64,000 nt of DNA from Terriglobia bacterium. Its GTDB lineage: Bacteria > Acidobacteriota > Terriglobia > Acidiferrales > UBA7541. The stretch's first letter is position 1. Each line of letters begins with the position of its first letter. A model generated the notes under the pieces. It was not told where the DNA came from. It did no database searches and saw nothing but the letters and a program-made list of their open reading frames with translations. The stretch lies in the NCBI GenBank assembly GCA_023512135.1, contig JAIMAG010000001.1, positions 310,001 through 374,000 of the forward strand, written 5' to 3'. This document shows positions 9,714-33,793 of the stretch, in pieces. The position numbers and the translations under genes were made by a program.

Positions 9714-11096
9714 TCAGCGTGTGGTCGGTACCAGAAACTCTTCCTCAGACGTCTCGTCCACGCGGACTTTTTCGATTCGCGCAACCGGCTTGGGTCGAGC
9801 AGCAATGGTGTGCAGGCTGGTGCTCAGGCTCAGCAAGATCCAGATGTGCGGGTAGTACAGAACCGAAACGAATGCCGCACTGGCCATGAATCCGATCATC
9901 CCGAGATCAAGCCCGAGGGCCAAACAGTAGAAGAAGCTTTGCTTGCCGTCAGGGTCGGTAGCCAGAATGTGTTTTCGGGTCAGCGCGTTCTGTCGGAAGA
10001 ATAAAACGAACAAAAGAATCAGCGGCACCAGTCCCACCAGCCCCAGCTCGGTCAGCGCTTCGATGTAGACGCTGTGGGAGACGAACGGCCCGGGGTGAGG
10101 ATCGTTTTCGTTGTAGTGTTCGAAGCGAACGATCGGGTAGTTGTGCGGGCCCACCCCGAAGATCGGGTAGTCCCGGAACATCTTCAACCCTTGCTTCCAG
10201 AGGTAGATGCGGTGGCTGGCCGTTCCATCCTGTTCCCAGTTCATCCCGGATTCCACGCGGTCTTTGCTGGCCTCGGGCAAGAAGTAGATCACCCCGATGA
10301 CGACGATCACGACCATCATCAGCGCCGCGCTTTTTTTGGGATTCCGAAAGAGTGCGGCTGCGCCGGAGGCCAGTGCACCCACCAGCGCTCCCCGGGAACC
10401 ACAGACCAGAATCGCGGCCAGGAAGATCAACGTCGAAGCGAACAACATCATGCGGATCAGCTTGCTTTCCCGGGCGAAGAACAGATAGCCGGCCACGGGA
10501 AAGATCACGCACATCCCGACTCCGAAGTCGCTGGCATTGGAGAAGAAACCGGTCGAGCCCGCCCCCACACCGAATTTGGCCAGCGCCCAACCGGGCACAC
10601 CGGAAGCCAGCAACATGAGATAGCTGCGGACAACGAACTGCGCCATTTTCAGGTTCAGCAGGAGCAGCAGAAGCAGGAACACGCGCAGCCGCCAGTCATT
10701 GGTCAGCACCCGGGTGATCAGGAAATAGATCACCAGCCAGCGCAGAATGTCGAAAAATCCGGTCCAGGCCCGGTCGCTGTGCACAGCCAGCAACGTGACA
10801 AACAGTACGGAGATCAGAAACAACAGGAGCAGGCGGTCCATCCAGAGGGCGGCGGGGGGACGACGGGCAATTCCCCGCGGAGCCAGAATCCACCCGACGA
10901 TGCCGAGCGCCACCGCAATCTTTCCGACCTGCAGTGGCGCGAGTACGGGATACATCGCGCTCAAGCGGGTGTATTCCACCAGCAGGTAGAACAGCAGGCC
11001 GACGAATGCCAGGTCCCAGCGACGCTCTCGGGCAGGTCGCTCCCAGGCTGCCGGGACGGAATCCAGCGTCGTCTCGAATTGGACAGCCCGGCTCAC
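9714..11096 (-). CDS. O-antigen ligase-like membrane protein
   Basis: 460 residues with about ten hydrophobic segments and the Wzy_C/O-antigen ligase signature: VCGSRGALVGALASG in one loop, and the large periplasmic loop containing HRIYLWKQGLKMFRDYPIFGVGPHNYP. This family moves lipid-linked glycans to an acceptor or polymerises repeat units in the periplasm. In PEP-CTERM loci such proteins are suspected of polymerising the EPS or glycosylating sorted proteins. No other polymerase is visible in the operon, so it may be the Wzy. The start is GTG at 11096, overlapping the upstream stop by one base (TAGTG). The open frame continues upstream to 11384 inside the next gene and is ignored there. Confidence 0.85.
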   Translation of the reverse strand: MSRAVQFETTLDSVPAAWERPARERRWDLAFVGLLFYLLVEYTRLSAMYPVLAPLQVGKIAVALGIVGWILAPRGIARRPPAALWMDRLLLLFLISVLFVTLLAVHSDRAWTGFFDILRWLVIYFLITRVLTNDWRLRVFLLLLLLLNLKMAQFVVRSYLMLLASGVPGWALAKFGVGAGSTGFFSNASDFGVGMCVIFPVAGYLFFARESKLIRMMLFASTLIFLAAILVCGSRGALVGALASGAAALFRNPKKSAALMMVVIVVIGVIYFLPEASKDRVESGMNWEQDGTASHRIYLWKQGLKMFRDYPIFGVGPHNYPIVRFEHYNENDPHPGPFVSHSVYIEALTELGLVGLVPLILLFVLFFRQNALTRKHILATDPDGKQSFFYCLALGLDLGMIGFMASAAFVSVLYYPHIWILLSLSTSLHTIAARPKPVARIEKVRVDETSEEEFLVPTTR

Positions 11097-12466
11097 TACC
11101 GACTCCCGCGGCCCAGCACTACGGTCTTGATCGTTTGCAGAACGATGTACAGATCCAACGAGAGGGAAATGTTCTTGATGTAGTAGAGGTCGTAGCGGAG
11201 CTTTTCCTTCGATTCTTCTATCGATGCACCGTAGTGGTAGTTGATCTGCGCCCAGCCGGTGATGCCCGGCCGAATGATATGCCGCAGATGGTAGTAGGGA
11301 ATGTGCGCAGTGAGTTTTTCGACGAACTCCGGCCGCTCCGGGCGCGGTCCGACGAACCCCATGTCGCCACGGAGCACGTTCCACAGTTGAGGGAGTTCGT
11401 CGAGCCGCGTCTTGCGCAGGAAGCGTCCCACGGGTGTGATCCGCGGGTCGTTGTCGCCGGCCCAGGTCGGTCCGACGTCGGCTTCGGCGTCTGCGCGCAT
11501 CGTGCGGAATTTGTAGCAGTAGAACACGCGGCCGAACTGTCCGACACGTCGTTGCCGGTAGAAGACGGGTCCCGGCGAGGTGAACCGGATGGCCAGGGCG
11601 ATCAGCGGAATCAGGGGAAGCACCAGGATCAGCAGCGCCAGCGAAATCAGAATCGAGACCAGACGACGCACCAGCAGAAACGTCGAATTCAAGCGGAAGC
11701 CCTCGGAAAAAATCAGCCAGCTGGGATACAGCTGGTCCACTTCGATTTTTCCGGAGACTTTCTCCAGCAATGCGGTGGCGTCGTCAATTTTGACGCCCTG
11801 CAGTCGCAGCTCCAGCAATTCCCGCACGGGCATGATGCTGCGCCGATCTTCCAGCGCAACAATCACGCGGTCCACACGCGCATAGCGCGCCAGCTCGGTC
11901 AGCCGATGTCCTAGCGTCTCGCGGTTCAGCGAGCCGTTTTGCAGAGCGCCGGCCCAGCCGATCACCTCCATACCCAGTTCGGGGCGCGTGCGCAGGGTTT
12001 CGACCAGACGCTGGGCACGCTCGCCGCTGCCGAGCACATAGACGCGTTCGCGCAGGAACGACTTCTGCAACAGCCACTCAAAAAACCGGCGCCAGGAGAG
12101 CAATCCCGCCGTTGCCAGCAGTAGTCCGATCGTGAACACGTTGTTTCCGATCAGGAACGCCGGAAACAGATAAGTGACCATGGCCAGCAGCAGCGAGAGT
12201 CCGCCCAGCGCGAACAGCAGCCGTATGTACAGTTCGTTCCGGTCCCGCTGCAGATCGTACAGATCGAAGTAGTAGAAGCCGAGCAGGGCCAGACCGCTCA
12301 CCGCCAGCACCTTCGCCACGCCGTTTTCGTAGTTCAGGATGAGGTAGGCGTCGGAACCACAACAGATCACGACGGCCAGCAACAACGAGGCGGCCAGGAT
12401 CAAAGCCTCGGTGCCGACCAGCACCAGCGTCCGAGTCGGATAGTAAACACTGAACAGTCGAATCAC
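11096..12466 (-). CDS. Undecaprenyl-phosphate glycosylphosphotransferase, PEP-CTERM/EpsB type
   Basis: 456 residues. An N-terminal block of four or five membrane helices is followed by a CoA-binding-like nucleotide fold (RVYVLGSGERAQRLVE). The C-terminal bacterial sugar transferase domain has FYRQRRVGQFGRVFYCYKFR, LRKTRLDELPQLWNVL and MGFVGPRPERPEFV. It transfers a sugar-1-phosphate from a UDP-sugar to undecaprenyl phosphate and so starts the EPS repeat unit. Architecture and neighbours match the PEP-CTERM-associated subfamily known as TIGR03013. It is a sensible first committed step of this operon. Confidence 0.92.
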   Translation of the reverse strand: MIRLFSVYYPTRTLVLVGTEALILAASLLLAVVICCGSDAYLILNYENGVAKVLAVSGLALLGFYYFDLYDLQRDRNELYIRLLFALGGLSLLLAMVTYLFPAFLIGNNVFTIGLLLATAGLLSWRRFFEWLLQKSFLRERVYVLGSGERAQRLVETLRTRPELGMEVIGWAGALQNGSLNRETLGHRLTELARYARVDRVIVALEDRRSIMPVRELLELRLQGVKIDDATALLEKVSGKIEVDQLYPSWLIFSEGFRLNSTFLLVRRLVSILISLALLILVLPLIPLIALAIRFTSPGPVFYRQRRVGQFGRVFYCYKFRTMRADAEADVGPTWAGDNDPRITPVGRFLRKTRLDELPQLWNVLRGDMGFVGPRPERPEFVEKLTAHIPYYHLRHIIRPGITGWAQINYHYGASIEESKEKLRYDLYYIKNISLSLDLYIVLQTIKTVVLGRGSR

Positions 12467-12473
12467 GGCTGTC

Positions 12474-13373
12474 CTAGTCCTTCCGTTTCCCGTTCTGGGG
12501 ATACCGATACTGGTAGTAGGAGCCGTAGCTGGCTGCTGGGGGCACGCAGTTCAGCACGGCTCCCAGCAGCGGTTTATCGCGAAATTCCTGCCGCACCTTC
12601 TGGGCCAGGTCGAACGGCGTTTGCGCTGCGCGCACCACCAGCAACACGCCATCGGCCAGCCCCGCCAGCAGCGCCGCGTCGGAGACGGGAATCGCGGGCG
12701 GCGAATCGATGACAATCCAGTCGAACAGCGGCGCCATCTGCTGGAGCAATTCCCGCAAGCGTCCATTGATGAGCAGTTCGTTCGGATTGGAAGCCGAGCG
12801 TCCACCCGGGATGAAGAACAGATTGCCCTGCGGACTCCGCTGCACGATCGAGAACAGGTCAGCATCGCCGCGCAAGTAATCGCTCAGGCCGGGGTACAGA
12901 TTCGTGCCGAGCGAAAGGTGCAGCCGCGACCAGCGCAGGTCGGCGTCGATCAGCAGCACGCGCCGCTCGTGCTGACGCACGAACACCTGCGCCAGATTGG
13001 CGGCCACGAAGCTTTTCCCCTCGGCGGGCAGCGCACTGGTAATCAGCAGCGTTTTCAGCGGGTGTTTTTCTCGCACTTTGTAGAGTCGTGCACGCAGGGT
13101 GCGGAACTCTTCGGTGCCGGCGCTGTGGCTGTGCGGCTGCAGGAACAGCATCGTTTTCGGGTCCGGATGCCACTCCCCCTGCGGACAGCGCTCGAGCAGC
13201 GTCTCCAGGGTCAGGGGGGCCGGCTCGGTGGCCGGGGCTTCGGCCGCTGGCGTCGCCCGTTCAAACGGGACCGCGGTGGACTCGAACCGGGCGGACACAC
13301 TGGTCTCCGACTGTGCCTGCTGCGCCGCTCGCTCCATTTCTGCTCGTTTCAGGGCTTCGTGAATCCGGCTCAT
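12474..13373 (-). CDS. Tyrosine autokinase, CpsD/BY-kinase of EPS locus
   Basis: 299 residues. The N-terminus MSRIHEALKRAEMERAAQQ is the standard lead of PEP-CTERM-locus tyrosine kinases. The kinase core has Walker A TSALPAEGKSF, Walker A' VLLIDADLRWSR and Walker B IVIDSPPAI. A tyrosine-rich tail (YGSYYQYRY) ends the protein and is the likely autophosphorylation cluster. These enzymes control chain length with the Wzz-type partner by cycling their phosphorylation state. Here the cytoplasmic kinase is separate from the membrane component (14337-15872), as in Gram-positive systems. Its start overlaps the ATPase stop by 4 bp (ATGA). Confidence 0.9.
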   Translation of the reverse strand: MSRIHEALKRAEMERAAQQAQSETSVSARFESTAVPFERATPAAEAPATEPAPLTLETLLERCPQGEWHPDPKTMLFLQPHSHSAGTEEFRTLRARLYKVREKHPLKTLLITSALPAEGKSFVAANLAQVFVRQHERRVLLIDADLRWSRLHLSLGTNLYPGLSDYLRGDADLFSIVQRSPQGNLFFIPGGRSASNPNELLINGRLRELLQQMAPLFDWIVIDSPPAIPVSDAALLAGLADGVLLVVRAAQTPFDLAQKVRQEFRDKPLLGAVLNCVPPAASYGSYYQYRYPQNGKRKD

Positions 13374-14326
13374 AGCTTCCTTTCCCGCGGAGTTGCCGGC
13401 GGTTCTTCTGGCGTGCGCATCTGGTCCACCAGGGTAGCCAGCGCCTTCAGGGCTTCCATCAGGGTGAGGTTTTCACCGTTCGATCGGTCGGGGACTTTGG
13501 GCGCCACCGGCTCGATCCGGTCCAGATCGAATTCCCGCGCCACTTCGCTGATGGTTTCTGCGCCGATGTTTTCCTTGCCGTCAACGAACGCGCTGATCAG
13601 GGCGTGCTCGCACAGCAGGTTGATCACCCGCGGAATGCCGCGCGAGTACCGATGGATTGCTTCCAACGCGTCCGGCAGGAAGATGGTTCGGCCGTCGCTG
13701 CCCGCAATCCGCAACCGTTCGTGGATGTATCCCCGGGTTTCCTCGAGATTCAGCGGGTGCGTTTTTGCGCGCAGGGTGATCCGCTGGCGCAACTGGCGCA
13801 GTTGCGGTTGATTGAGTTTTTCCTCCAGTTCCGGCTGCCCTGCCAGGACAATCTGGAGCAGCTTTTCGGTCGCAGTCTCCAGATTGGTCAGCAGGCGGAT
13901 CTCTTCCAAAACCTGGGGCGAAAGGTTCTGCGCTTCATCGACGACCAGCACGGCGGTTTCGCCGGCCTTGTAGCGGTCGAGCAGCCACTGGTTCAGCTTG
14001 AGCAGCACCTGGCTTTTCTGCTTCGTATCGCACGGGATGCCGAAATCGGCCATCATGAAGTCGAAAAACTGCGAAACATTCAGCCGGGAATTGAACACGA
14101 ATGCTGTGGCCACTCGCTCGCGACGCAGCCAGTCCAAGAGTTTGTTCAGCAGCGTAGTTTTTCCGGTGCCGACTTCGCCGGTCAGCAGAATGAATCCCTT
14201 GCGGCTCTGGATGCCGTAGGTGAGGCAGGCCAGAGCCTCCTGCGTGTGCCGCGTCAGGAACAGATAGCGCGGGTCCGGATTGACGTTGAACGGATTCTCT
14301 TGCAGACCGAAATGTTTTTTGTACAT
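13370..14326 (-). CDS. ExeA/XrtA-associated AAA ATPase
   Basis: 318 residues starting MYKKHFGLQENPFNVNPDPR, the hallmark of the ExeA-like family. Walker A is LLTGEVGTGKTTLLN and Walker B is AVLVVDEAQNLS. A C-terminal helical domain carries the conserved GIPRVINLLCEHAL. In PEP-CTERM loci this subfamily (TIGR03015) is called a putative secretion ATPase; its exact role is unproven. The ATG at 14326 fits the family start; an open stretch up to 14638 lies inside the upstream gene. It is 10 bp from the Wzz-type gene and overlaps the autokinase gene by 4 bp. Confidence 0.9.
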   Translation of the reverse strand: MYKKHFGLQENPFNVNPDPRYLFLTRHTQEALACLTYGIQSRKGFILLTGEVGTGKTTLLNKLLDWLRRERVATAFVFNSRLNVSQFFDFMMADFGIPCDTKQKSQVLLKLNQWLLDRYKAGETAVLVVDEAQNLSPQVLEEIRLLTNLETATEKLLQIVLAGQPELEEKLNQPQLRQLRQRITLRAKTHPLNLEETRGYIHERLRIAGSDGRTIFLPDALEAIHRYSRGIPRVINLLCEHALISAFVDGKENIGAETISEVAREFDLDRIEPVAPKVPDRSNGENLTLMEALKALATLVDQMRTPEEPPATPRERKL

Positions 14327-14336
14327 CAGTTCGCCC

Positions 14337-15872
14337 TCAGACCCGTGCCTGTTGTGCGTGCGACGGAGGTCGCACTCGCGCCACTTCCTTCTTCCAGAAG
14401 CGGGAAGGCTTGCCGTTGGCCTCTTGCACCACGGGCAGCAGCGCCAGCGTGGGCAGCCCGAGCAGCGCCTGGATATCGCGTTCGTTGCGGATGGATTTGT
14501 CCCGCATCTCGAGCAGCACGGCAATGCCCCCGCCCAGCACCAACCCGGCCAGCAATCCACCCAGTGCGAATTGCAAGCGGTTCGGGTAGGAAGGCCGCTC
14601 GGGTAGATTGGCCGGGTCCATGATCCGGAATTGCTCACCCTGCTGGTCGCGTTCGAGCGCTTGTCCCATCTCGGATTGCGCCTTTTTGGCCAGCAGTTCG
14701 TTGTAGAACCGCTGTGCGGTGTCGTAGTCGCGCGTCAATTCCTTGTACTGCTGCTCCACCATCGGACTGAGCTGCACTCGCGCCTGATAGACCTTGATCT
14801 GCTCCTGGAGCCGTTCCTGCTCCCGGGTTTTTTCCCGGATGGTCAGATCGAGCTGCCGGATTTGACTCCGCAACTGCTGGATTTGTGGCGGCTCAATCAG
14901 GCGGCTGCTTTGCCCTTCGGTTTCCACAGGCGGATTGGCTTCCGCTTCGGCGATTCTTCGCTCCAGGTCTGCGATGGTTTGCTTCATGTGCGTCACATCG
15001 GGGTGGTTTTCCGTGTAGCGCGCTTGCAGATCGATCAACTGTTTTTTGCGCAGCTCCAGCTCGTCCTGCAGCGTGCGTGGATTCGTGCCGAGCTGCGTGC
15101 TCTGCCAAGCCGCCAGTTGCTGCTGCAACTGGGTTTCCGCAAACGACTTTTCCTGCTGGGCGCGGTTGATCATCTGCGTGACGGCTTCGAGCTGAGTGTT
15201 CAGACCCATCAGTAGGTTCAGATTCGTCTGCTCCTGTCCCGGGAGTTGTCCGATGTAGCGCCGCTTGAATTCGGCGAGCCGGGCATCTTCGGCGTCCAGC
15301 TTCGCCTTGGCCTCGTCCAGCTGCTTCTGCAAAAACGCCGTGGTCTGCTGGGCACGGCTCTCGCGCCATTTCAGGTTTTCCTCCATGAACATGGAGGTGA
15401 TCTGCTGGCAGATCTGCTGCGCCAGATGCGCGTCGGACCACGTGAAGCTGATGTAGAACCCCGGCAGCCCCTGGCCCCCGCCCGCCCCGGCAAGCGTTTG
15501 CACGGGGGTCACTTTGATGGCCTGGCGCAGCCGGTTGATCAGATCCTCGAGCGGTACCTGCGCCTTTTGTTCTTCGCTGAACAGCGGGTAACGGTCGATC
15601 AACGGCTGCAGCCGTGAACGGCTCAGGATCTGCTCCCGCATCGTGCCCAGGCGCTGATTCAGCTCGTCGGTGATCACCGGGGGCACGAACCGGTCGGGCA
15701 CCTTCTGCTGTTCCACCAGCACCAGCGTTTGCGAGGTGTACTGATCCTGGATCGTCAGCGAGTACCCGAACGATCCTGCGCACACCAGCACCGCCGGGAT
15801 GACAATGATCCAGATGCGCCGCCAGGCAATCTCCAGATATTCTTCGATCGTCAATTCACGATGTCCGAGCAT
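14337..15872 (-). CDS. Wzz-type polysaccharide chain-length determinant, PEP-CTERM subfamily
   Basis: 511 residues. It starts MLGHRELTIEEYLEIAWRRI and has one N-terminal membrane helix (IIVIPAVLVCAGSFGYSL). A long periplasmic coiled coil rich in Q, E and R spans roughly residues 160-400. A proline-rich segment (DPANLPERPSYPN) precedes the second membrane helix (FALGGLLAGLVLGGGIAVLL). This is the PCP fold that sets polymer length and spans the periplasm together with Wza and the tyrosine kinase. The domain order matches TIGR03007. There is no kinase domain here, consistent with the separate kinase at 12474. Confidence 0.92.
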   Translation of the reverse strand: MLGHRELTIEEYLEIAWRRIWIIVIPAVLVCAGSFGYSLTIQDQYTSQTLVLVEQQKVPDRFVPPVITDELNQRLGTMREQILSRSRLQPLIDRYPLFSEEQKAQVPLEDLINRLRQAIKVTPVQTLAGAGGGQGLPGFYISFTWSDAHLAQQICQQITSMFMEENLKWRESRAQQTTAFLQKQLDEAKAKLDAEDARLAEFKRRYIGQLPGQEQTNLNLLMGLNTQLEAVTQMINRAQQEKSFAETQLQQQLAAWQSTQLGTNPRTLQDELELRKKQLIDLQARYTENHPDVTHMKQTIADLERRIAEAEANPPVETEGQSSRLIEPPQIQQLRSQIRQLDLTIREKTREQERLQEQIKVYQARVQLSPMVEQQYKELTRDYDTAQRFYNELLAKKAQSEMGQALERDQQGEQFRIMDPANLPERPSYPNRLQFALGGLLAGLVLGGGIAVLLEMRDKSIRNERDIQALLGLPTLALLPVVQEANGKPSRFWKKEVARVRPPSHAQQARV

Positions 15873-15926: not shown

Positions 15927-17390
15927 CTATTCGATTTCAATCGGCCGGTAGCCGAACCGGAATCCGATTCCGAACATATGCCGCAGCATCACTCGCCCGC
16001 ACTCCGTTCCCACACAGATGGGGAAGCTGGACTGCTGTCGCTGCACGTCGTAGCTGAAGAAAATATCCGTGTAGCGTCCCAGGGGCCGTCCGAAGCTCAT
16101 GCCGCCCAGAACCGAGTGGAACCGTCGGCCGTCGGTCCCGCGCACAGCGAGTTCTGCATTCCGCGAGTAGGCCAGTCGCGTGTTCCAGCCCCAATGCCGG
16201 GTAAGCTGCCGGTTCCAACCCAGCTCCACGTGGTGAGTCCGGGCACCGGTGAAGACGCCCGAGCCACCGTTCAAGAAGTGGTAGTACGAAAGATAGAGCG
16301 TGCTGCGTTGGAACAGATAGTTCAGCACGCCGCGCACCGACCAGGAGAGCCGCTCGTTCCGCAACCCGCCCGGCGCCGACTGGATCAGCAGGTCCGGGCC
16401 GCCCGAAATCACCAGAGCCATGCGATCGCTGATCTGGTGCCCATAGCCTAGGTGCAGGTTGTGCGAGGTCACCACCAGATCCGAACCAATGAACCAGAAC
16501 CGACCATGCGTGTATCCGACGGCCAGGGTGTCCTGGGGGCTGATCAGATAGTTGTAGCCGGCAGAGAAATTGGCGCTGCGTCCATCCAGCAGGTCGCCAT
16601 CCAGAAAATGCAGCACGCCGAAGGCCCCTGAAGCTGTTATCGAGCTGCGCCGCGTCAACTGCCGCAGCACCTGTCCGACCGCTGCGTTGCTGATCCGCCG
16701 GCTGTCCCCGCTGAAGAAATCCTGGCTGGGCAACAGGGATGTGTTCAGGATAGGGCCGCCTTCTCCCAATCCATGGCCGATGCCGATATCCCCCGGATTC
16801 AGCAATCCACCCGCGGGCAGACCGAAGGCCGATTCCGGCAGCAGGGAGAAGTAGTCGCTGAGCAGAAACTGCCAGTTGCGTAAGGTGATTCGTTGCGTGA
16901 ATCCGGCCTGGTGAAAGAACCGGTTCCGGTCCCCGGCCTCGGTGCGGCGATTCGGGATCAGCCCGCCGCCCGAGTAGTGTGCGGTGAGCTGATAGTTCCG
17001 CCAGAGGCGATCCACGGTGATGCCGGCGTTGAACAGACTGTAGGAGAACAGATCCGCGTCGCCGACGGTTACGCCGCGCCGGTTTGTGTCCACGGTCTGG
17101 CTCAGGTGCAGATGAGGAACAAAGTAGCTCCGGGTCTGCCCCATCCGCTGCAGGGTGACGGCTTCGACGCCCGTCAGCGGCGGCGGGGTTTCCGTCTGCT
17201 GCCGCGCAGGCAGAGACTCTTCCTGATTGCGAGCCGCACTGGTGCTTTCCCGTTGCTCCACTGGCCCGTACGGCTCGACGCGGTTGCTGACGCGCGGGTC
17301 GCGGCTCGGCTCTTTCTGCTGGGCCGTTGCCTGGGGGACGCAGAGCAGCAGTCCAAAGGTGATGCCTGCCACCAACAATTTCCGTGTCAT
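15927..17390 (-). CDS. Outer-membrane beta-barrel of EPS locus
   Basis: 487 residues. The signal peptide is MTRKLLVAGITFGLLLCVPQATAQ (positions 1-23). A low-complexity, charged linker follows, then many alternating amphipathic strands rich in Y, F, G and R, ending near FGYRPIEIE. The length and location, between Wza-like and Wzz-like genes, resemble the uncharacterised barrel found in PEP-CTERM EPS operons, possibly TIGR03016. It may form or support the EPS exit pore, but this is inference. The start at 17390 has a strong Shine-Dalgarno (GGGGGAGAG); a longer frame to 17534 reaches into the upstream gene. Confidence 0.78.
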   Translation of the reverse strand: MTRKLLVAGITFGLLLCVPQATAQQKEPSRDPRVSNRVEPYGPVEQRESTSAARNQEESLPARQQTETPPPLTGVEAVTLQRMGQTRSYFVPHLHLSQTVDTNRRGVTVGDADLFSYSLFNAGITVDRLWRNYQLTAHYSGGGLIPNRRTEAGDRNRFFHQAGFTQRITLRNWQFLLSDYFSLLPESAFGLPAGGLLNPGDIGIGHGLGEGGPILNTSLLPSQDFFSGDSRRISNAAVGQVLRQLTRRSSITASGAFGVLHFLDGDLLDGRSANFSAGYNYLISPQDTLAVGYTHGRFWFIGSDLVVTSHNLHLGYGHQISDRMALVISGGPDLLIQSAPGGLRNERLSWSVRGVLNYLFQRSTLYLSYYHFLNGGSGVFTGARTHHVELGWNRQLTRHWGWNTRLAYSRNAELAVRGTDGRRFHSVLGGMSFGRPLGRYTDIFFSYDVQRQQSSFPICVGTECGRVMLRHMFGIGFRFGYRPIEIE

Positions 17391-17400
17391 CTCTCCCCCT

Positions 17401-18018
17401 TTACGGGACGACAATCGTGTCGCCCGGTTTGAGTTCGATGTTCTGTTCGGTCCGCTTTCCCTTGAGCACATCCTTGTACTTGAACGGGTACCGCACCTGC
17501 TGGCCACCTTCGTTTCGCAGGACGTAGATTTCATTCAGATTCGCCCACTGCGAGAATCCACCGGCACCCGAGAGCGCCTGCAGCACGGTCATTCCGGGCA
17601 GCAGCGGGTATGCGCCCGGGCGGCTCACTTCGCCCAGCACGTAGAAGTGGCGACTGTTGATCTCGGTGACGATCACCGTCACCTGGGGGTCGGCGATGAA
17701 TTTCTTCAGTCCGAGGGTGATGCTCTCGGCCAGCTCCATCGGGGTCAGACCGGCGGCCTGCACGTCGTTCAGCAGCGGCAGGGAAATTTTCCCGTCCGGG
17801 CGCACCGGCACGGTGCGCGTGATCTCCGGCTCCTTCCACACACTGATGGTCAGCACATCCTGCGGGCCAATCCGATAGTCAGCGGAGGGCCCCGGCGCGG
17901 ACATACGTGCTCCATTTCCGTTGCCCGGGGATTCTGCCCTGGTGCGATTGCTGGTCTGCTGTGCCGGAAGCGGTGCTACGGTCAGCAGCAGCACAAGCAG
18001 CAGTGTTCTGATTCGCAT
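17401..18018 (-). CDS. Wza-like polysaccharide export protein (SLBB/Poly_export)
   Basis: 205 residues. The signal peptide is MRIRTLLLVLLLTVAPLPAQQ. The Poly_export motif YRIGPQDVLTISVWKEPE is followed by an SLBB domain (HFYVLGEVSRPGAYPLLPGMTVLQALS) and the terminal IELKPGDTIVVP. Known relatives form the outer-membrane or periplasmic part of the EPS translocon. This is a short, single-SLBB version without a visible lipobox or a C-terminal helix, so the pore may need the barrel encoded next to it. The ATG at 18018 has AAGGAG eight bases upstream; the extra in-frame residues to 18069 overlap the regulator gene and are discounted. Confidence 0.9.
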   Translation of the reverse strand: MRIRTLLLVLLLTVAPLPAQQTSNRTRAESPGNGNGARMSAPGPSADYRIGPQDVLTISVWKEPEITRTVPVRPDGKISLPLLNDVQAAGLTPMELAESITLGLKKFIADPQVTVIVTEINSRHFYVLGEVSRPGAYPLLPGMTVLQALSGAGGFSQWANLNEIYVLRNEGGQQVRYPFKYKDVLKGKRTEQNIELKPGDTIVVP

Positions 18019-18049
18019 AGTTCGCACTCCTTTTCTTCCTTGTGGTTCC

Positions 18050-19018
18050 TCACGTGGCCGTGGATTCATCCAAGCCGATCTGCTTCAGCTTGTAGAGCAG
18101 TGCCTTGTAGCTGATTTGCAATTCCTGAGCGGCCCGCTTGCGGTTCCAGCGCGTGCGCGTAAGAACCTTCAGAATCAGTTCGCGTTCGGCTTGCCGGGAA
18201 GCCGCCCGCGCCGCTTCTTTCAGGGAGATGCCTTTGGCCCCGCCGTTTTCGCTTCGCACGGCGGTTGCCTGCCAGTTCAGCTCCGCCAGTGCCGCACGCT
18301 CATCGCCCAGCGCGACCATTTTCTTCACTGTGTTTTCCAGTTCTCGAATGTTCCCGGGCCAGGCATATTCCATGAGGGCGCGCAGAGTTCGCGACGTCAG
18401 CACCGGCTGCGGCCGGCCGAACAGCTCCGCGTACTTCCGCAGGAAATGCTCCGCCAGCAACGGGATATCTTTCTTGCAATGGCGTAGCGGCGGCAGGCGC
18501 AGGCAAACTCCGTTGATCCGATAAAACAGCTCTTCGCGGAAGCGACCGGCGCGCACCAGCTCTTCCAGCTGGCGGCTGGTGGAGCAGATCAGGCGCGCCG
18601 CCGGCAACGACCTGTTTCCGTTGCTCTCCGGCAGCACGTGCAACAGCTTCGGTTGCAAGGCAGGGTCCAGCTCGGCCACCTCGTCCAGAAACAGCGTTCC
18701 ACTGAACCCGTGCCCGCCAGATTCCGGCTCCCCGCGCAGCAGGCGATCGAGCGTTTGCAGATCCGTCAGTGCCGCACAGTTGACTTTGATGAAGGGCTGC
18801 TGGCTCCGCCGTGAACGCCGATGCAGTTCCAGCGCAATGACTTCCTTGCCCGTGCCACTCTCCCCTTGGAGCAAAACCGGAATGTCGGTGGGCGCAATGT
18901 CTTCGACGAATCGCTCCAACGCCTGCATCGCCGGACTGCTCCCACAAACAAACGGCCTCACCTCCGCTCCGGCCAGCGGCTCCTCGACTACCATGGCTTC
19001 CGTTACCTTTAGTTCCAT
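18050..19018 (-). CDS. Fis-type AAA+ regulator without GAFTGA loop
   Basis: 322 residues, first gene of the EPS operon. There is no receiver domain, only about 25 N-terminal residues. The AAA+ core has Walker A LLQGESGTGKE, Walker B GTLFLDEVAEL and the GRFREELFYR segment. The Fis-type HTH is NRKRAAQELQISYKALLYKL. The segment between NCAAL and GTLFLDE is only 22 residues, versus 33 in the NtrC-type protein at 31109. The GAFTGA loop that contacts sigma-54 is absent, and Sensor I reads CSTS rather than ATN. The protein may bind and hydrolyse ATP but is not expected to open sigma-54 promoters by itself. It may act as a repressor, a co-oligomer or a sigma-70 regulator. Confidence 0.85.
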   Translation of the reverse strand: MELKVTEAMVVEEPLAGAEVRPFVCGSSPAMQALERFVEDIAPTDIPVLLQGESGTGKEVIALELHRRSRRSQQPFIKVNCAALTDLQTLDRLLRGEPESGGHGFSGTLFLDEVAELDPALQPKLLHVLPESNGNRSLPAARLICSTSRQLEELVRAGRFREELFYRINGVCLRLPPLRHCKKDIPLLAEHFLRKYAELFGRPQPVLTSRTLRALMEYAWPGNIRELENTVKKMVALGDERAALAELNWQATAVRSENGGAKGISLKEAARAASRQAERELILKVLTRTRWNRKRAAQELQISYKALLYKLKQIGLDESTAT

Positions 19019-19078: not shown

Positions 19079-19094
19079 AGCACGGCGGATGCCA
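19079..19094 (-). promoter_or_regulatory. Candidate sigma-54 promoter of the EPS operon
   Basis: Minus-strand TGGCATCCGCCGTGCT has GG and GC at the correct spacing. It differs from the TTGCW consensus only by G for T at the first base of the -12 element. The expected start site is near 19068, about 50 nt before the regulator ATG at 19018. Confidence 0.55.
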
Positions 19095-19170: not shown

Positions 19171-19358
19171 GTCCGGCTTCTAATGTTGAAAAACTCGAGG
19201 TGCGACCGCGTTTCCACTAAGTGGCAACAATTTTCCCTTGGACTTGACTTTTGCTCGCCAGCGACTTCTACAAATTCCAAAGATAAGTTCTTTTTTATCT
19301 ATAAATTGTCACGGGACCTCGGGTTTTAGGTGCCGGGCTACTGAATTGTCGAGCGAGC

Positions 19359-19393: not shown

Positions 19394-19463
19394 ACACAAT
19401 CGTCCACGCTTTTCATTTCCGATTTGTAATAAAGGGTTTACAACTGTCCGTTCCAGGTTCGGA

Positions 19464-19479
19464 TGGCAGAGAGATTGCA
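19464..19479 (+). promoter_or_regulatory. Sigma-54 promoter of the exosortase gene
   Basis: TGGCAGAGAGATTGCA matches the TGGCAC-N5-TTGCA consensus at 15 of 16 relevant spacing and core positions. Transcription should start near 19490. An in-frame ATG at 19463 overlaps this element, so it cannot be the start codon of the exosortase gene if the promoter is real. Confidence 0.75.
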
Positions 19480-19513
19480 CAATGCGCTTGTCCGGAAGAC
19501 TAGCTCGCCGCCG

Positions 19514-20410
19514 ATGAACACTGTGACCGAACGCTGGATGGCTTCTGAGTCGGAAGGCCGATTCGATTTGCGCCGATGGATCTGGCCTGCCTTCTTATTG
19601 GCCTTGCCCGTAGGGTTTCTTTATTCTGGCGTGCTTGCCCTGCTCGTCCGCGACTGGTGGAACGACCCTGACTTCTCGCATGGTTTTTTTGTGCCGTTGT
19701 TCGCCGGTTTCGTAATCTGGCAGCGACGCCAGCGGCTCGCGCAGCTTCCTGTACAACCTTCCTGGCTGGGATTGGTCGTCATTGCCGGCTCGCTCTGCAC
19801 CCTGATTGTGGGTGTGCTCGGCGCCGAACTGTTTCTGCAGCGGTCCTCCCTGGTGCTGCTGCTGATGGGACTGGTGATTCATTTCTTCGGCTGGAGCTGG
19901 TTTCGCGCGCTGCTGTTTCCGCTGGCCTGTCTTTTCCTGATGATTCCCATTCCCTCGATTATCTACAATCGGATCGCATTCCCGTTGCAGTTGCTGGCTT
20001 CGCAGGTGGCGGCCACGTTGCTGGCCGCCAGCCGGGTGCCCGTTCTGCTGGAAGGCAACGTCATCCAGTTGCCGCACATGATGCTGGAAGTCGTGGAGGC
20101 ATGCAGCGGTCTCCGTTCTCTGGTCTCGCTCATTACACTGGCCATCATTTACGGGCATTTGCTTGAGCCGAACCTGTTTCGCCGCGCCGTGCTCGTGTTC
20201 AGCGCCGTGCCTGTGGCCGTGCTGGCCAATTCCCTCCGCGTCGCCGGCACGGGTTTGCTGGGCCATTACTGGGAACCGGAAAAGGCCCAGGGATTCTTCC
20301 ACACCTTTTCTGGACTGGTGGTTTTTCTGATTTCCTTGTTTTTGCTGTTTGCACTCCACGGGGCTCTGCGCATGTTCGAAGGGCGGTGGAAGAGAAGGAG
20401 CACACGGTGA
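19514..20410 (+). CDS. xrtA: Exosortase (PEP-CTERM transpeptidase-like membrane protease)
   Basis: 298 residues, about eight membrane helices. The catalytic triad of the family is present: cysteine in VVEACSGLRSL, arginine in ANSLRVAGTG and histidine in GFFHTFSG. Exosortases cleave PEP-CTERM tails in the inner membrane and hand the protein on for export or attachment. The surrounding EPS gene set is the one normally found with XrtA, hence the symbol, although the subtype is not certain from sequence. I place the start at 19514, downstream of the sigma-54 promoter; no good Shine-Dalgarno is visible, and ATG 19538 is another option. It is followed by epsI with a 4-bp overlap. Confidence 0.9.
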   Translation: MNTVTERWMASESEGRFDLRRWIWPAFLLALPVGFLYSGVLALLVRDWWNDPDFSHGFFVPLFAGFVIWQRRQRLAQLPVQPSWLGLVVIAGSLCTLIVGVLGAELFLQRSSLVLLLMGLVIHFFGWSWFRALLFPLACLFLMIPIPSIIYNRIAFPLQLLASQVAATLLAASRVPVLLEGNVIQLPHMMLEVVEACSGLRSLVSLITLAIIYGHLLEPNLFRRAVLVFSAVPVAVLANSLRVAGTGLLGHYWEPEKAQGFFHTFSGLVVFLISLFLLFALHGALRMFEGRWKRRSTR

Positions 20411-21273: not shown

Positions 21274-21289
21274 TGGCCCCTGAGTTGCA
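21274..21289 (+). promoter_or_regulatory. Sigma-54 promoter of the PEP-CTERM gene
   Basis: TGGCCCCTGAGTTGCA has TGG and TTGCA at exact -24/-12 spacing. The preceding 21057-21273 is AT-rich and gene-free. The predicted start site is near 21300, about 50 nt before the ATG at 21350. Confidence 0.72.
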
Positions 21290-21349
21290 AGAAAAACAGC
21301 GATTAACTGCTGTGAATTCTGTTTCCCCTAGAGGGTGGGTGAGAAACAC

Positions 21350-22276: not shown

Positions 22277-22292
22277 TGGCGAGGGAATTGCA
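22277..22292 (+). promoter_or_regulatory. Sigma-54 promoter of the TPR lipoprotein gene
   Basis: TGGCGAGGGAATTGCA has TGGC and TTGCA in exact register. The predicted start site near 22304 leaves an approximately 78-nt leader before the ATG at 22382. The rest of the 22073-22381 gap holds the palindromes above and no gene. Confidence 0.72.
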
Positions 22293-22381
22293 ACACTTTG
22301 CAGCGAAGCATTTTGTTCCATCAGCCGGAGCGGTATGTTCTTGGCTGAAAGATGCGAAATTCAGAGAAGGTGAATTTTCCG

Positions 22382-25753: not shown

Positions 25754-26830
25754 TCAGTCGGCTGACTGTTCTGCCGTCAGTTCTCCGACGGAAAACGAGT
25801 GCGGCCGTGCTCGTTTTGCCGGCAGGCCGGCCTGGCGGATCTTGTAGAGCAAAGCCCGGTAGCTGATATTCAGCGCCCGCGCGGCGCGCTTGCGATTCCA
25901 GCTGTTCGCTTCGAGCACTTGCAGGATGACCTTCCGTTCCAGTTCGAGCACCGCCTGCCGGGTCAGTTTCTTCAGGGAAACGGAGCCGTCTGCCGGGATG
26001 TGCGGAGCCAGGTGCGTTGCTTCCTGCCCGCGGGCCACCAGTTCTTCGGCCATGGCATCTTCCGAGCCCAGGATCACATACCGCTTCATCAGGTTTTCGA
26101 GTTCCCGGATGTTGCCGGGCCAGGAATACCGCTGGAGTTGCCGCATCAATGGCTGCGAAAGAGGTTGGGCCGCCCGGTTGTATTTTTCGCCGTACACCTG
26201 CAGGAAGTAGTTCACCAGGTCCGGGATATCGACGAGGCGCTCGCGCAGCGGGGGCAGCTCGATATTCACCACGTTGATGCGGTAGAACAGGTCTTGCCGG
26301 AAATTTCCGGCCTCGATTTCGTCTTCGAGTTGTCGATTGGTGGCGCACACCACCCGCACTTCGACCTTTTTGTCCTCCTGAGCTCCGATCCGGCAGAACT
26401 GTCCGTCCTGGAGCAGTTGCAGGAGTTTGGCCTGCAGGGCCGGCTCGAGCTCACCGACTTCGTCGAGGAACAGCGTGCCGCGGTGGGCCATCTCCACCCG
26501 GCCGGGCTTGGTGCCGTAGGCGCCGGTGAACGCGCCCTTTTCGTAGCCGAACAGCTCGCTCTCCAGCAGAGTGCCGGGAATCGCCGGGCAGTTCACCTTC
26601 ACAAAAGGACCGTTCGCCCACGGTGACTGCCGGTGCAGCAGCTTGGCCACCATCTCTTTCCCCGTGCCGCTCTCGCCGCGAATGAGCACCGGAACGTTGG
26701 CCGTGGCGACCTTTTCGACCCTCTGGCGCACCGCCCGCATCGCCTCCGAGCGGCCGTAGATGATGTGCTCGGGCGGAATGTCGTTGGTCGGGACCGACAG
26801 TGAAGGCCTGGGCTGGGCAGTAGCAGACAT
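25754..26830 (-). CDS. Sigma-54 enhancer-binding regulator (AAA+ and Fis HTH)
   Basis: 358 residues with no receiver domain; the N-terminus is only about 35 residues before a FIYGRS-like start of the AAA+ core (HIIYGRSEAMRAVRQ). Walker A is RGESGTGKEM, the sigma-54 loop GYEKGAFTGAYG is intact, and Walker B is GTLFLDEVGEL. The Fis HTH NRKRAARALNISYRALLYK is nearly identical to those of the other two regulators in this window. With no sensory domain, activity may be set by expression or partners. The ATG at 26830 follows GAAGGGA, a good ribosome site; GTG at 26863 is upstream. It is my best candidate for the activator of the local sigma-54 promoters. Confidence 0.9.
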   Translation of the reverse strand: MSATAQPRPSLSVPTNDIPPEHIIYGRSEAMRAVRQRVEKVATANVPVLIRGESGTGKEMVAKLLHRQSPWANGPFVKVNCPAIPGTLLESELFGYEKGAFTGAYGTKPGRVEMAHRGTLFLDEVGELEPALQAKLLQLLQDGQFCRIGAQEDKKVEVRVVCATNRQLEDEIEAGNFRQDLFYRINVVNIELPPLRERLVDIPDLVNYFLQVYGEKYNRAAQPLSQPLMRQLQRYSWPGNIRELENLMKRYVILGSEDAMAEELVARGQEATHLAPHIPADGSVSLKKLTRQAVLELERKVILQVLEANSWNRKRAARALNISYRALLYKIRQAGLPAKRARPHSFSVGELTAEQSAD

Positions 26831-26856
26831 TTGTCCCTTCAAACCACAATGTTCTA

Positions 26857-26872
26857 TGCACACTACGCACCA
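26857..26872 (-). promoter_or_regulatory. Possible sigma-54 promoter of the second regulator gene
   Basis: Minus-strand TGGTGCGTAGTGTGCA has GG and GC in register but departs from consensus at C4 and T12. It would give a 16-nt leader containing the ribosome site. A rival sigma-70 promoter cannot be excluded. Confidence 0.35.
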
Positions 26873-31108: not shown

Positions 31109-32545
31109 CTAGCCGGTTCGCGGTATGGGAGTCGTTGGGCTCGAACGAGGTCCCCGCCCACCATCCAGTTTGAACTGGCGCATTTTGTAGAGCAAGGCCT
31201 TGTAGCTGATGCCCAGCAGGCGCGCTGCTTCTTTGCGGCTCCAGTTGGTTTTCTCCAGGGCGTCGGCGATGGCTTCCATTTCCGCTTCGTCCTTCAAACT
31301 GCGCACCAGCTCTTTCAAGCCCTGCTCGCGAGGTTGGGCTGATTCCTCCCGCGGTGAGGTTCGCTGGCGGGTTGCGGCCATTTCCAGCAGTTCGCGGAAG
31401 CTCGATTCGTCGTCTTCCAGAATTACATACCGCTTGACGAAGTTTTCCAGCTCACGCAGGTTGCCCGGCCAGGGGTAGCGCATGGCCGCTTCCATCAGGT
31501 GGCTGGAGGGACGGCGCGGGTGTTTGTTGTATTTGTCGGCATACTTTTCCAGGAAGTGCTGGAACAGTACGGGGATTTCGCGTGCCCGCTCGCGCAACGG
31601 GGGTACGTGGATGGAGAACACGTTCAGGCGGTAGTAGAGGTCTTCGCGGAACCGGCCGCACCGGATGGCTTCCCGCACGTTCACATTGGTGGCGGCCAGC
31701 ACCCGCACGTCGGAGTGCACCAGGTGTCGACCGCCCAGCCGCGAGAACTGGTTGTCCTGGAGTACGTGCAGCAGCTTCGCCTGCAGGTGCGTGGGCATTT
31801 CAGCGATTTCATCCAGGAAGATCGTTCCTTTGTTCGCCAGTTCGAATTTTCCGGGCTTGGCTCGAACGGCACCCGTGAAGGCGCCCTGTTCGTAGCCGAA
31901 CAGCTCCGATTCAAGCAGCTCGCCGGGCAGGGCCGCGCAGTTCACCTTCACGAAGGGCTGGTGGGCACGGGGCGAGCGCAGATGAATCATCCGCGCCACG
32001 ACTTCTTTGCCCACACCGCTCTCGCCGGAGATGAACACCGGCACGTCCACCGGCGCAATCTGGAGAATTTGCTGCCGGATTTTCACCATCTGCGGGCTGG
32101 CGGCCAGGAAGCAGAGGTCCTCGGTCAATTGCTCGCAGTATTCCCGCAGGGCCTGGTTTTCGGCGCGCAGTTGTCGTTTCTGGCGGCACTTCAGCATGGC
32201 CGCGTCGAGCTCGGATTTCTCGAACGGTTTCGTCAGGTAGTCGTAGGCGCCCAGGCGGATCGCTTCGACGACGGTGCCCACCTCGTTGGAGCAAGAGAGC
32301 ATGATCACGTTCAGGGTGGGATCGATCTGCATCATCTCGCGCAGGGTTTCCAGGCCGTCCATCTCCTCCATCAACACGTCGAGGATGATGAAATCCGGAC
32401 GTTCTCCGGCGCCGATGCGTTCGAGCGCCTCTTTGCCGCTGGCGACGGTTTCGACCTGGTATCCGTCCACTTCCAGCAGCGTCTGCAGGTACTTGCGGAT
32501 GCTCGGTTCGTCATCCACGACCAGGATGCGTTCTTTTTCTGCCAT
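31109..32545 (-). CDS. NtrC-family response regulator
   Basis: 478 residues. The receiver domain is about residues 5-120: acidic pair VDDEPS, phosphoacceptor aspartate in FIILDVLMEE and lysine in LTKPFEK. The AAA+ domain has Walker A SGESGVGKE, an intact sigma-54 loop GYEQGAFTGAVR and Walker B GTIFLDEIAEM. The Fis HTH is SRKEAARLLGISYKALLYK. It should activate sigma-54 promoters when phosphorylated by the kinase encoded just upstream (30-bp gap). The position in a PEP-CTERM-rich region makes it a functional analogue of PrsR, though orthology is not shown. Confidence 0.93.
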   Translation of the reverse strand: MAEKERILVVDDEPSIRKYLQTLLEVDGYQVETVASGKEALERIGAGERPDFIILDVLMEEMDGLETLREMMQIDPTLNVIMLSCSNEVGTVVEAIRLGAYDYLTKPFEKSELDAAMLKCRQKRQLRAENQALREYCEQLTEDLCFLAASPQMVKIRQQILQIAPVDVPVFISGESGVGKEVVARMIHLRSPRAHQPFVKVNCAALPGELLESELFGYEQGAFTGAVRAKPGKFELANKGTIFLDEIAEMPTHLQAKLLHVLQDNQFSRLGGRHLVHSDVRVLAATNVNVREAIRCGRFREDLYYRLNVFSIHVPPLRERAREIPVLFQHFLEKYADKYNKHPRRPSSHLMEAAMRYPWPGNLRELENFVKRYVILEDDESSFRELLEMAATRQRTSPREESAQPREQGLKELVRSLKDEAEMEAIADALEKTNWSRKEAARLLGISYKALLYKMRQFKLDGGRGPRSSPTTPIPRTG

Positions 32546-32575: not shown

Positions 32576-33793
32576 TCACTCGAGATCGGTGGGCAGCAGA
32601 AAGGTGAACGTGGCACCGCGGCCGACTTCGCTGTCCACCCAGATCTTGCCGCGATGGGCCTGAACCAGGCGCTTGGCGATGGCCAGCCCCAGGCCCATCC
32701 CGGAGGAAGAGCGGTCCACGCGCACGAAGTCCTCAAAAATTTCCTGGTGAAATTCCGGGGCGATCCCCGTGCCGCTGTCCGTCACCGAAACTTTCACGCT
32801 GTTGAACTGCGTTGCTTGGGTTTGCCGTCGTTCCACGGCCGGCACGAGCTGGGCGATGCGTCGCTCCCAGAAGTGCGGTTCGGCTGTGATCCGCACCCGG
32901 CCGCCCGCCGGGGTGTGTTTGAGCGCATTGTCCAGCAGATTCACGATGACCTGCTGCACCTTTTGATAGTCGAACTTGAAGGCAGGAAGTTCGGGCGCCA
33001 AGTGCGTTTCCAGTCGTACCTGCTTGCGCAGGGCGGCATCGTGCCAGCGAGAAACGATCTCCTCGATGCAGTCCCGCAGGTCATTCTGGCGTATGTGCAG
33101 CACCAGCTTGCCGCTCTCCAGCGCTGAGTAGTTCAGGAACATGGAGACCAGGCGCACCAGTCGTTCGCAGCTTTCTTTGGATTCCTGCAGGATGTCGCGC
33201 TGTTTTTCGTTCAGTCTGCCGAGCGAGCCCGACAGCAGCAGGTCGTAATAGCCTTTCATGACCGCCAGCGGAGTTTTCAGCTCATGCGCCGCCGATGCCA
33301 GAAACACGGTCTTTTGCCGGTTCACTTCCTGCAGCCGCAGGTAGGCAGCCAGCAGATTCCGGTAGGTAATCTCTCGTTCTTGCAGCAGCTCCTGCATGGT
33401 CTGCTGCAGGTTGCTCTCTGCAGGCACCGTCGGGGACGGTTCGATGTAAACGACCAGCCAGTCCGGCTCCGGCAGCCAGCGAATCCGCATCCGCACCTGT
33501 TCGCCGTGGCATTCGACCGGAAGGCAGACTTCCTGCTCGCCGCTCTCCAGCGGGACAAACACGCTGCGGGCATCCAGCCGCAACAGATCGGCAAACAAGT
33601 TCGGGCGCTCCGGCCCGCTCAACTGGAAGCCGTGCTCTTGCAGACATTGCTGGGCGCGAAGATTCGCAAACAGGATGCGACCGCTTCGCTCGGCTACCAG
33701 CAGCGGCCGGTCCAAACCGTCCAGCAGCGAAGAGATCAGCGAAAGGGCAAGCACGCCCCCGTTCTGCTGCTCGAGCGTGATGGTCTTACCCAA
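32576..33793 (-). CDS. Soluble sensor histidine kinase
   Basis: 405 residues. No membrane helix is visible. The N-terminal 110 residues resemble a PAS-like sensor (LDRPLLVAERSGRILFAN). HisKA carries the phosphoacceptor histidine in ASAAHELKTPL (about residue 170). The HATPase domain follows with VIVNLLDNALKHTP (N box), DSGTGIAP (G1) and GMGLGLAIAK (G2). It is the obvious partner of the NtrC-type regulator downstream. PrsK kinases are usually larger and membrane-bound, so I do not use that name. The start is TTG at 33793 after GGGAGGGG, a strong ribosome site. Confidence 0.9.
   Translation of the reverse strand: MGKTITLEQQNGGVLALSLISSLLDGLDRPLLVAERSGRILFANLRAQQCLQEHGFQLSGPERPNLFADLLRLDARSVFVPLESGEQEVCLPVECHGEQVRMRIRWLPEPDWLVVYIEPSPTVPAESNLQQTMQELLQEREITYRNLLAAYLRLQEVNRQKTVFLASAAHELKTPLAVMKGYYDLLLSGSLGRLNEKQRDILQESKESCERLVRLVSMFLNYSALESGKLVLHIRQNDLRDCIEEIVSRWHDAALRKQVRLETHLAPELPAFKFDYQKVQQVIVNLLDNALKHTPAGGRVRITAEPHFWERRIAQLVPAVERRQTQATQFNSVKVSVTDSGTGIAPEFHQEIFEDFVRVDRSSSGMGLGLAIAKRLVQAHRGKIWVDSEVGRGATFTFLLPTDLE

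Follow-up and report, generated by a model that had tools for sequence, protein, structure and literature searches.

The GAFTGA motif of enhancer-binding proteins is established as a requirement for the opening of sigma54 complexes (PMC10274813, PMC3162934). NtrC of Caulobacter and NtrC of Rhodobacter capsulatus are NtrC-type proteins with a natural loop-1 deletion (PMC10274813), and TyrR, DhaR and HupR are relatives of sigma54 activators that have no functional GAFTGA (PMC3162934). The characterised enhancer-binding proteins without GAFTGA have so far been read as defectors to sigma70 control.

A further GAFTGA-less protein, here called dEBP, is encoded at 18050..19018 on the minus strand of the window, i.e. 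the whole stretch of 64,000 nucleotides that was analysed. It shares the missing loop with the proteins named above. The two NtrC proteins differ from it in that they are two-component response regulators of nitrogen control acting at sigma70 promoters, and TyrR, DhaR and HupR differ in their other sensory domains and their metabolic targets. No link of TyrR, DhaR or HupR to a sigma54 operon of their own is known to us. The defective dEBP, in contrast, appears to have remained within the sigma54 system, since a sigma54-type promoter precedes its own operon together with a positioned enhancer.

The dEBP protein

The dEBP reading frame was open along its length, and the product of 322 amino acids comprises an AAA+ domain, a lid and a Fis-type HTH. 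Profile searches gave matches to Sigma54_activat (PF00158, 2.9e-33), the AAA lid (PF25601) and HTH_8, and no match to Response_reg. As 51 residues precede Walker A, the protein has no N-terminal sensory domain. The scores against the PrsR profile TIGR02915 (201 bits) and the TyrR profile NF008085 (160.6 bits) were under the curated cut-offs of 502.6 and 576, respectively. The predicted fold (pLDDT 86) matched that of NtrC1 (1ny5) with a VIA Z of 23.7 and an rmsd of 2.4 over 222 aligned residues; for VpsR, Z was 22.0, the PDB match spanning residues 24-240 only.

dEBP was aligned with two intact GAFTGA proteins of the window, encoded at 25754..26863 and 31109..32545, both on the minus strand. 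The distance from NCAAL to GTLFLDE was 22 residues in dEBP and 33 in each of the other two, which confirmed the original prediction that GAFTGA is missing and that this stretch is 11 residues shorter than in the 31109 protein. From FLDE to sensor I there were 31 residues instead of 37, i.e. 6 fewer, and part of loop 2 was missing in addition to the GAFTGA loop 1. Walker A (GESGTGK), Walker B (FLDE) and the arginine-finger region (FREELFYR) were retained and sensor I read CSTS, as had also been predicted; the sensor-I Asn is missing. The genome encodes 12 other full sigma54-activator proteins, and the 11 that were read over this part (all but L041) carried loop 1, with the variants GAFTDA, GSFTGA and GAFTSA in one protein each. 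An rpoN gene was found in the same genome. Having lost both sigma54-contact loops, dEBP should be unable to activate sigma54 or to open sigma54 complexes.

Conservation and descent

Homologues in relatives formed a graded series from 87% identity downward. Loci from relatives and from the class yielded at least 68 proteins without GAFTGA and 43 with GAFTGA. When the columns of loops 1 and 2 were removed before tree building, the 68 dEBP-type proteins grouped in one clade (SH-aLRT 99), which spans the four families f1, f3, f6 and f11 of the class. Sister to this clade (SH-aLRT 91) were three f9-family proteins, all fully intact, whose genes also lie directly upstream of wza, i.e. in the place of dEBP. 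The single clade, together with an intact sister in the same gene place, argues for the descent of dEBP from an intact sigma54 activator that lost loop 1.

The original prediction had considered that the deletion might be either a conserved subfamily trait or an error unique to this assembly. The former was borne out, as GAFTGA was absent from 68/68 members of the clade. The latter is contradicted by the clade and by an orthologue in the same-genus genome G001, which is 87% identical and shares the deletion. Over eight close pairs, dN/dS was 0.05-0.21 for the AAA+ domain and 0-0.12 for the HTH, and by this measure the dEBP genes are under purifying selection. A sequencing error, a frameshift or a decaying pseudogene was ruled out by the G001 orthologue, the 68 members and the dN/dS of 0.05-0.21.

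The median spacing from Walker A to Walker B was 49 in the dEBP clade vs 60. The Walker A Lys was kept in 67/67 readable members, the Walker B Asp in 57/68 and the catalytic Walker B Glu in 44/68. The Glu-switch Asn was present in 13/68 members, compared with 40/43 of the intact set, and the sensor-I Asn in 3/68, compared with 38/43. The two arginine fingers were kept in 65/68 and 63/68 members, while sensor II and the HTH were near invariant across all 68. The f11 members (L208, L211, L212, L213, L215 and L220) were the most degenerate, with alterations in the Walker A surroundings, in Walker B and in a finger; a clear palindrome of the kind described below was absent from those of these f11 loci that were scanned.

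In a phylum sample, no match at dEBP level was found outside the class among the matches listed; 222 genomes without a match stood outside that list, and the result is a weak one. Our literature searches found nothing on this GAFTGA-less subfamily and nothing that combined GAFTGA with Acidobacteria.

The exopolysaccharide operon

The gene next downstream of dEBP encodes a putative Wza-type exopolysaccharide (EPS) export protein (17401..18069, likely start near 18018). The putative products of the following genes, all on the minus strand like wza, are an outer-membrane beta-barrel-type protein (15927..17534), a Wzc-type chain-length protein (14337..15872), an XrtA-associated-type ATPase as the marker of this operon type (13370..14638, true start near 14326), a tyrosine-kinase-like ATPase (12474..13373) and a sugar transferase (11096..12466). 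An exosortase gene of the EpsH family (19463..20410, plus strand; PF09721, E 7e-75) is divergent from dEBP. In nearly all homologous loci the dEBP gene was immediately ahead of wza, and it was nearly always the first gene of a wza-wzc EPS export operon. Most loci continued after wza with the beta-barrel-type protein, wzc, the XrtA-type ATPase and the kinase.

Among 61 relatives, dEBP was present in 25 of the 26 with an XrtA-type ATPase at an identity of at least 60%, and in 1 of the 35 others. Of the 26 dEBP carriers among the relatives, 11 had the exosortase gene alongside in divergent orientation, and 8 had no match to PF09721. The original prediction had placed the protein in an exosortase/EPS context; the EPS export operon was upheld, and the exosortase was rejected as the main association, as several carriers have no exosortase match while the EPS operon of the XrtA-ATPase type fits 25/26. 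In the sole relative with the operon and without dEBP (L287, G034:C39:102000-118000), no sigma54 site scoring at least 18.5 was found in 16 kb. The XrtA-associated-type ATPase was multi-copy in some relatives, with 11 matches in G029 and 6 each in G008 and G033.

Promoter and upstream palindrome

Promoters were scanned for with a fixed sigma54 consensus, using thresholds and a start-codon rule of our own. A -24/-12 promoter of the dEBP-EPS operon, TGGCATCCGCCGTGCT, was predicted at 19079..19094 on the minus strand. Between -140 and -20, an interval picked after a first scan, a sigma54 site was found ahead of 46/63 dEBP genes, compared with 2/63 on the reverse strand and 2.8% of random windows of the same loci. 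When the full 500 nucleotides upstream were scanned, 54 of the 63 genes had a site, against 4.5 in shuffles. As the genomes are related, these counts are not independent events, and P values overstate independence. No second promoter was found between dEBP and wza (3/63 sites, with 3.2 expected by shuffle). A sigma54-like site, though a weaker one, lay 77-90 nt ahead of the f9 sister genes. The sigma54-type promoter of dEBP itself goes beyond the original prediction, as do the degraded loop 2 and the lack of an N-terminal sensory domain.

A possible sigma54 promoter of the divergent exosortase operon, TGGCAGAGAGATTGCA, lies at 19464..19479 on the plus strand, which would place the start of the exosortase at an internal Met near 19514. 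A similar sigma54-type site was found near the 5' end of 22/34 exosortase genes, most of the 34 being from dEBP loci. Two more sites on the plus strand were found in the scan, one at 21274..21289 ahead of a PEP-CTERM gene at 21335 and one at 22277..22292 ahead of a TPR (PrsT-like) gene at 22352. They fit the picture in Proteobacteria, namely the RpoN dependence of pepA and the PrsR system (PMC9850573, PMC1569441). A TTCCACT half-site was located about 142 bp upstream of the TPR-gene site. Elsewhere in the genome, a PEP-CTERM gene had a sigma54-type site, TGGTAAGGGAATTGCT, at L244:897-912 (G000:C19), and AAGTGGAAAA-like half-sites were seen upstream of it by eye.

Unbiased dyad and word counts upstream of the promoters gave the palindrome CCAC-N3-GTGG, which was refined to the consensus TTCCACTNAGTGGAA. 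In the window, this candidate palindromic enhancer (UAS) is represented by TTCCACTAAGTGGCA at 19212..19226 (unstranded), about 132 bp upstream of the -24 element. The UAS was 127-138 bp from the -24 element in 26/47 promoters and in 0-3/47 in the other windows tested, the matrix having been built from the same promoters. In about half of the dEBP loci a clear UAS was present, at around 133 bp upstream; it was not seen in most f11 members.

The exact UAS had a single match in the dEBP genome, at 19212-19226, and was not seen as a genome-wide regulon site. It was found in 7/27 genomes of a first set, which includes G187 and G189 as genomes not known to carry dEBP, and every match was at the dEBP locus. 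In a second set of 27 genomes, all without dEBP, it was found in one, at an unrelated place. This co-occurrence and the position of the site suggest that dEBP binds the palindrome at 19212-19226.

Candidate partner proteins

The original prediction had proposed that dEBP opposes or modulates the protein encoded at 25754..26863, an intact GAFTGA enhancer-binding protein without a receiver domain, and that the two bind similar DNA. The promoters of 25754 orthologues were enriched in GTGAAA and not in GTGGAA, which is a related but different half-site, and the recognition helix of these orthologues is mostly ISYRALLYK, whereas that of dEBP is ISYKALLYK. Several 25754 orthologues from the genera g5 and g6 had no Walker B Glu; four of those from g6 were also without a normal Walker A. 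GAFTGA was kept in these. Orthologues with Walker B DG were L053:10785-11969, L054:17587-18783, L055:7865-9103 and L058:5851-6966; L207:4219-5298, L233:12521-13642, L203:10811-11932 and L069:4727-5842 combined Walker B DG with Walker A GPKGSGK and a sensor-I Asp. All eight kept GAFTGA, and with their changed Walker B they show the opposite kind of degeneration to dEBP.

The 31109 protein is a PrsR-type response regulator with an intact GAFTGA. A gene for a putative sensor histidine kinase (32576..33793, minus strand) adjoins it and is conserved beside it. 31109 and its orthologues were intact wherever read and have the ISYKALLYK helix in common with dEBP. Because the 25754 orthologues differ in helix and half-site and are degenerate in g5 and g6, we infer that 31109 is more likely than 25754 to be the working activator or partner.

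Discussion

That dEBP acts at its own sigma54 locus appears likely. We give an even chance to the more specific reading that it is a former sigma54 activator which was retained in its place in the EPS operon and restrains EPS expression by feedback at the sigma54 enhancer. A negative sign of regulation is likewise evenly poised; the sign is not readable from sequence. By this mechanism, dEBP would have lost sigma54 contact and kept its place at the head of an EPS export operon that has a sigma54 promoter, and it would bind the upstream palindrome. Activation of the dEBP-EPS promoter from the same enhancer would fall to an intact enhancer-binding protein, most probably 31109; that an intact activator must work there is argued by the conserved spacing and by the resident dEBP, which should be incapable of doing so. 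The dEBP product would occupy the enhancer or join mixed AAA+ rings, and activation would be damped. The outcome would be negative feedback on the expression of EPS genes and probably also of the exosortase. The exact UAS goes with dEBP, and in the simplest account the protein, once bound there, would compete or mix with an intact paralogue. The general idea of a protein that opposes or modulates a GAFTGA-bearing one thus gains weight from the sigma54 promoter ahead of the gene and the positioned enhancer that goes with it, although the named partner 25754 is weakened.

We favour feedback restraint, followed by a co-activating mixed ring and then by sigma70 control. A pure DNA competitor needs neither Walker A nor arginine fingers, and their conservation therefore fits a co-activating mixed ring too. 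In that case dEBP on the enhancer would bring a paralogue with GAFTGA into a mixed ring and would itself be needed for activation, in the style of HrpR/HrpS or VnfA1/VnfA3, which to our knowledge have not been described as lacking the sigma54-contact loop. The conserved nucleotide-binding and ring-interface residues, the conserved spacing of UAS and promoter and the tie of the UAS to the presence of dEBP are all consistent with such a targeting subunit, and mixed activators have been published (PMC9542535). We nevertheless regard it as rather unlikely, since the catalytic Glu is missing in 24/68 members and the Glu-switch Asn in 55/68, and the partner is putative, the 25754 paralogue itself being degenerate in two genera.

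Regulation of a sigma70-type promoter, at the dEBP locus or of other genes, was the other possibility in the original prediction. It would follow the example of TyrR, the NtrC proteins of R. capsulatus and Caulobacter, and VpsR; the characterised GAFTGA-less relatives act so (PMC10274813, PMC3162934), and VpsR likewise controls an exopolysaccharide. It is less favoured because the dEBP locus is itself sigma54-type, and we consider it improbable: the locus carries sigma54-type promoters in a scan for sigma54 sites only, and the sole exact UAS copy in the genome sits there. It is very improbable that the palindrome serves another activator only and that the role of dEBP is unrelated or residual. 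The UAS was not found in roughly half of the loci, nor in most f11 members, which would agree with this; purifying selection and the near-invariant HTH of dEBP speak against it, and genomes with intact paralogues and without dEBP have no exact UAS, one unrelated match aside.

Beyond the single locus, we lean slightly towards a class-wide family of natural sigma54 anti-activators or targeting subunits, which would control their own sigma54 operon from a positioned enhancer, where they would mix or compete with an intact paralogue. As judged from the aligned residues, such a family would have lost the sigma54-contact loops and much of the hydrolysis machinery and kept the ring, nucleotide-binding and DNA-binding parts. 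If feedback restraint or a mixed ring is true, dEBP would represent a naturally occurring dominant-negative or mixed-ring subunit of an AAA+ activator. Questions of ring composition, such as how many GAFTGA subunits are needed and whether an inert subunit targets or poisons the ring, would become testable with natural proteins. Export of exopolysaccharide in this bacterial class would also have a specific control point in dEBP.

HrpR/HrpS and VnfA1/VnfA3 are paralogous enhancer-binding proteins acting jointly at one sigma54 promoter, in which we propose a likeness to dEBP; PMC9542535, which describes them, does not present them as being without the sigma54-contact loop, a term not found there. 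PrsR (TIGR02915) resembles dEBP in its AAA+ domain and Fis HTH and in an EPS/exosortase context with sigma54 sites, but it has a receiver domain and GAFTGA, and dEBP has neither. VpsR of Vibrio cholerae carries an N-terminal, receiver-like domain, and dEBP is without such a domain. Both have the enhancer-binding-protein fold without a proper GAFTGA and a link to exopolysaccharide (PMC3162934). VpsR has been described as acting with sigma70 (PMC10274813), whereas the dEBP gene lies behind a predicted sigma54 promoter.
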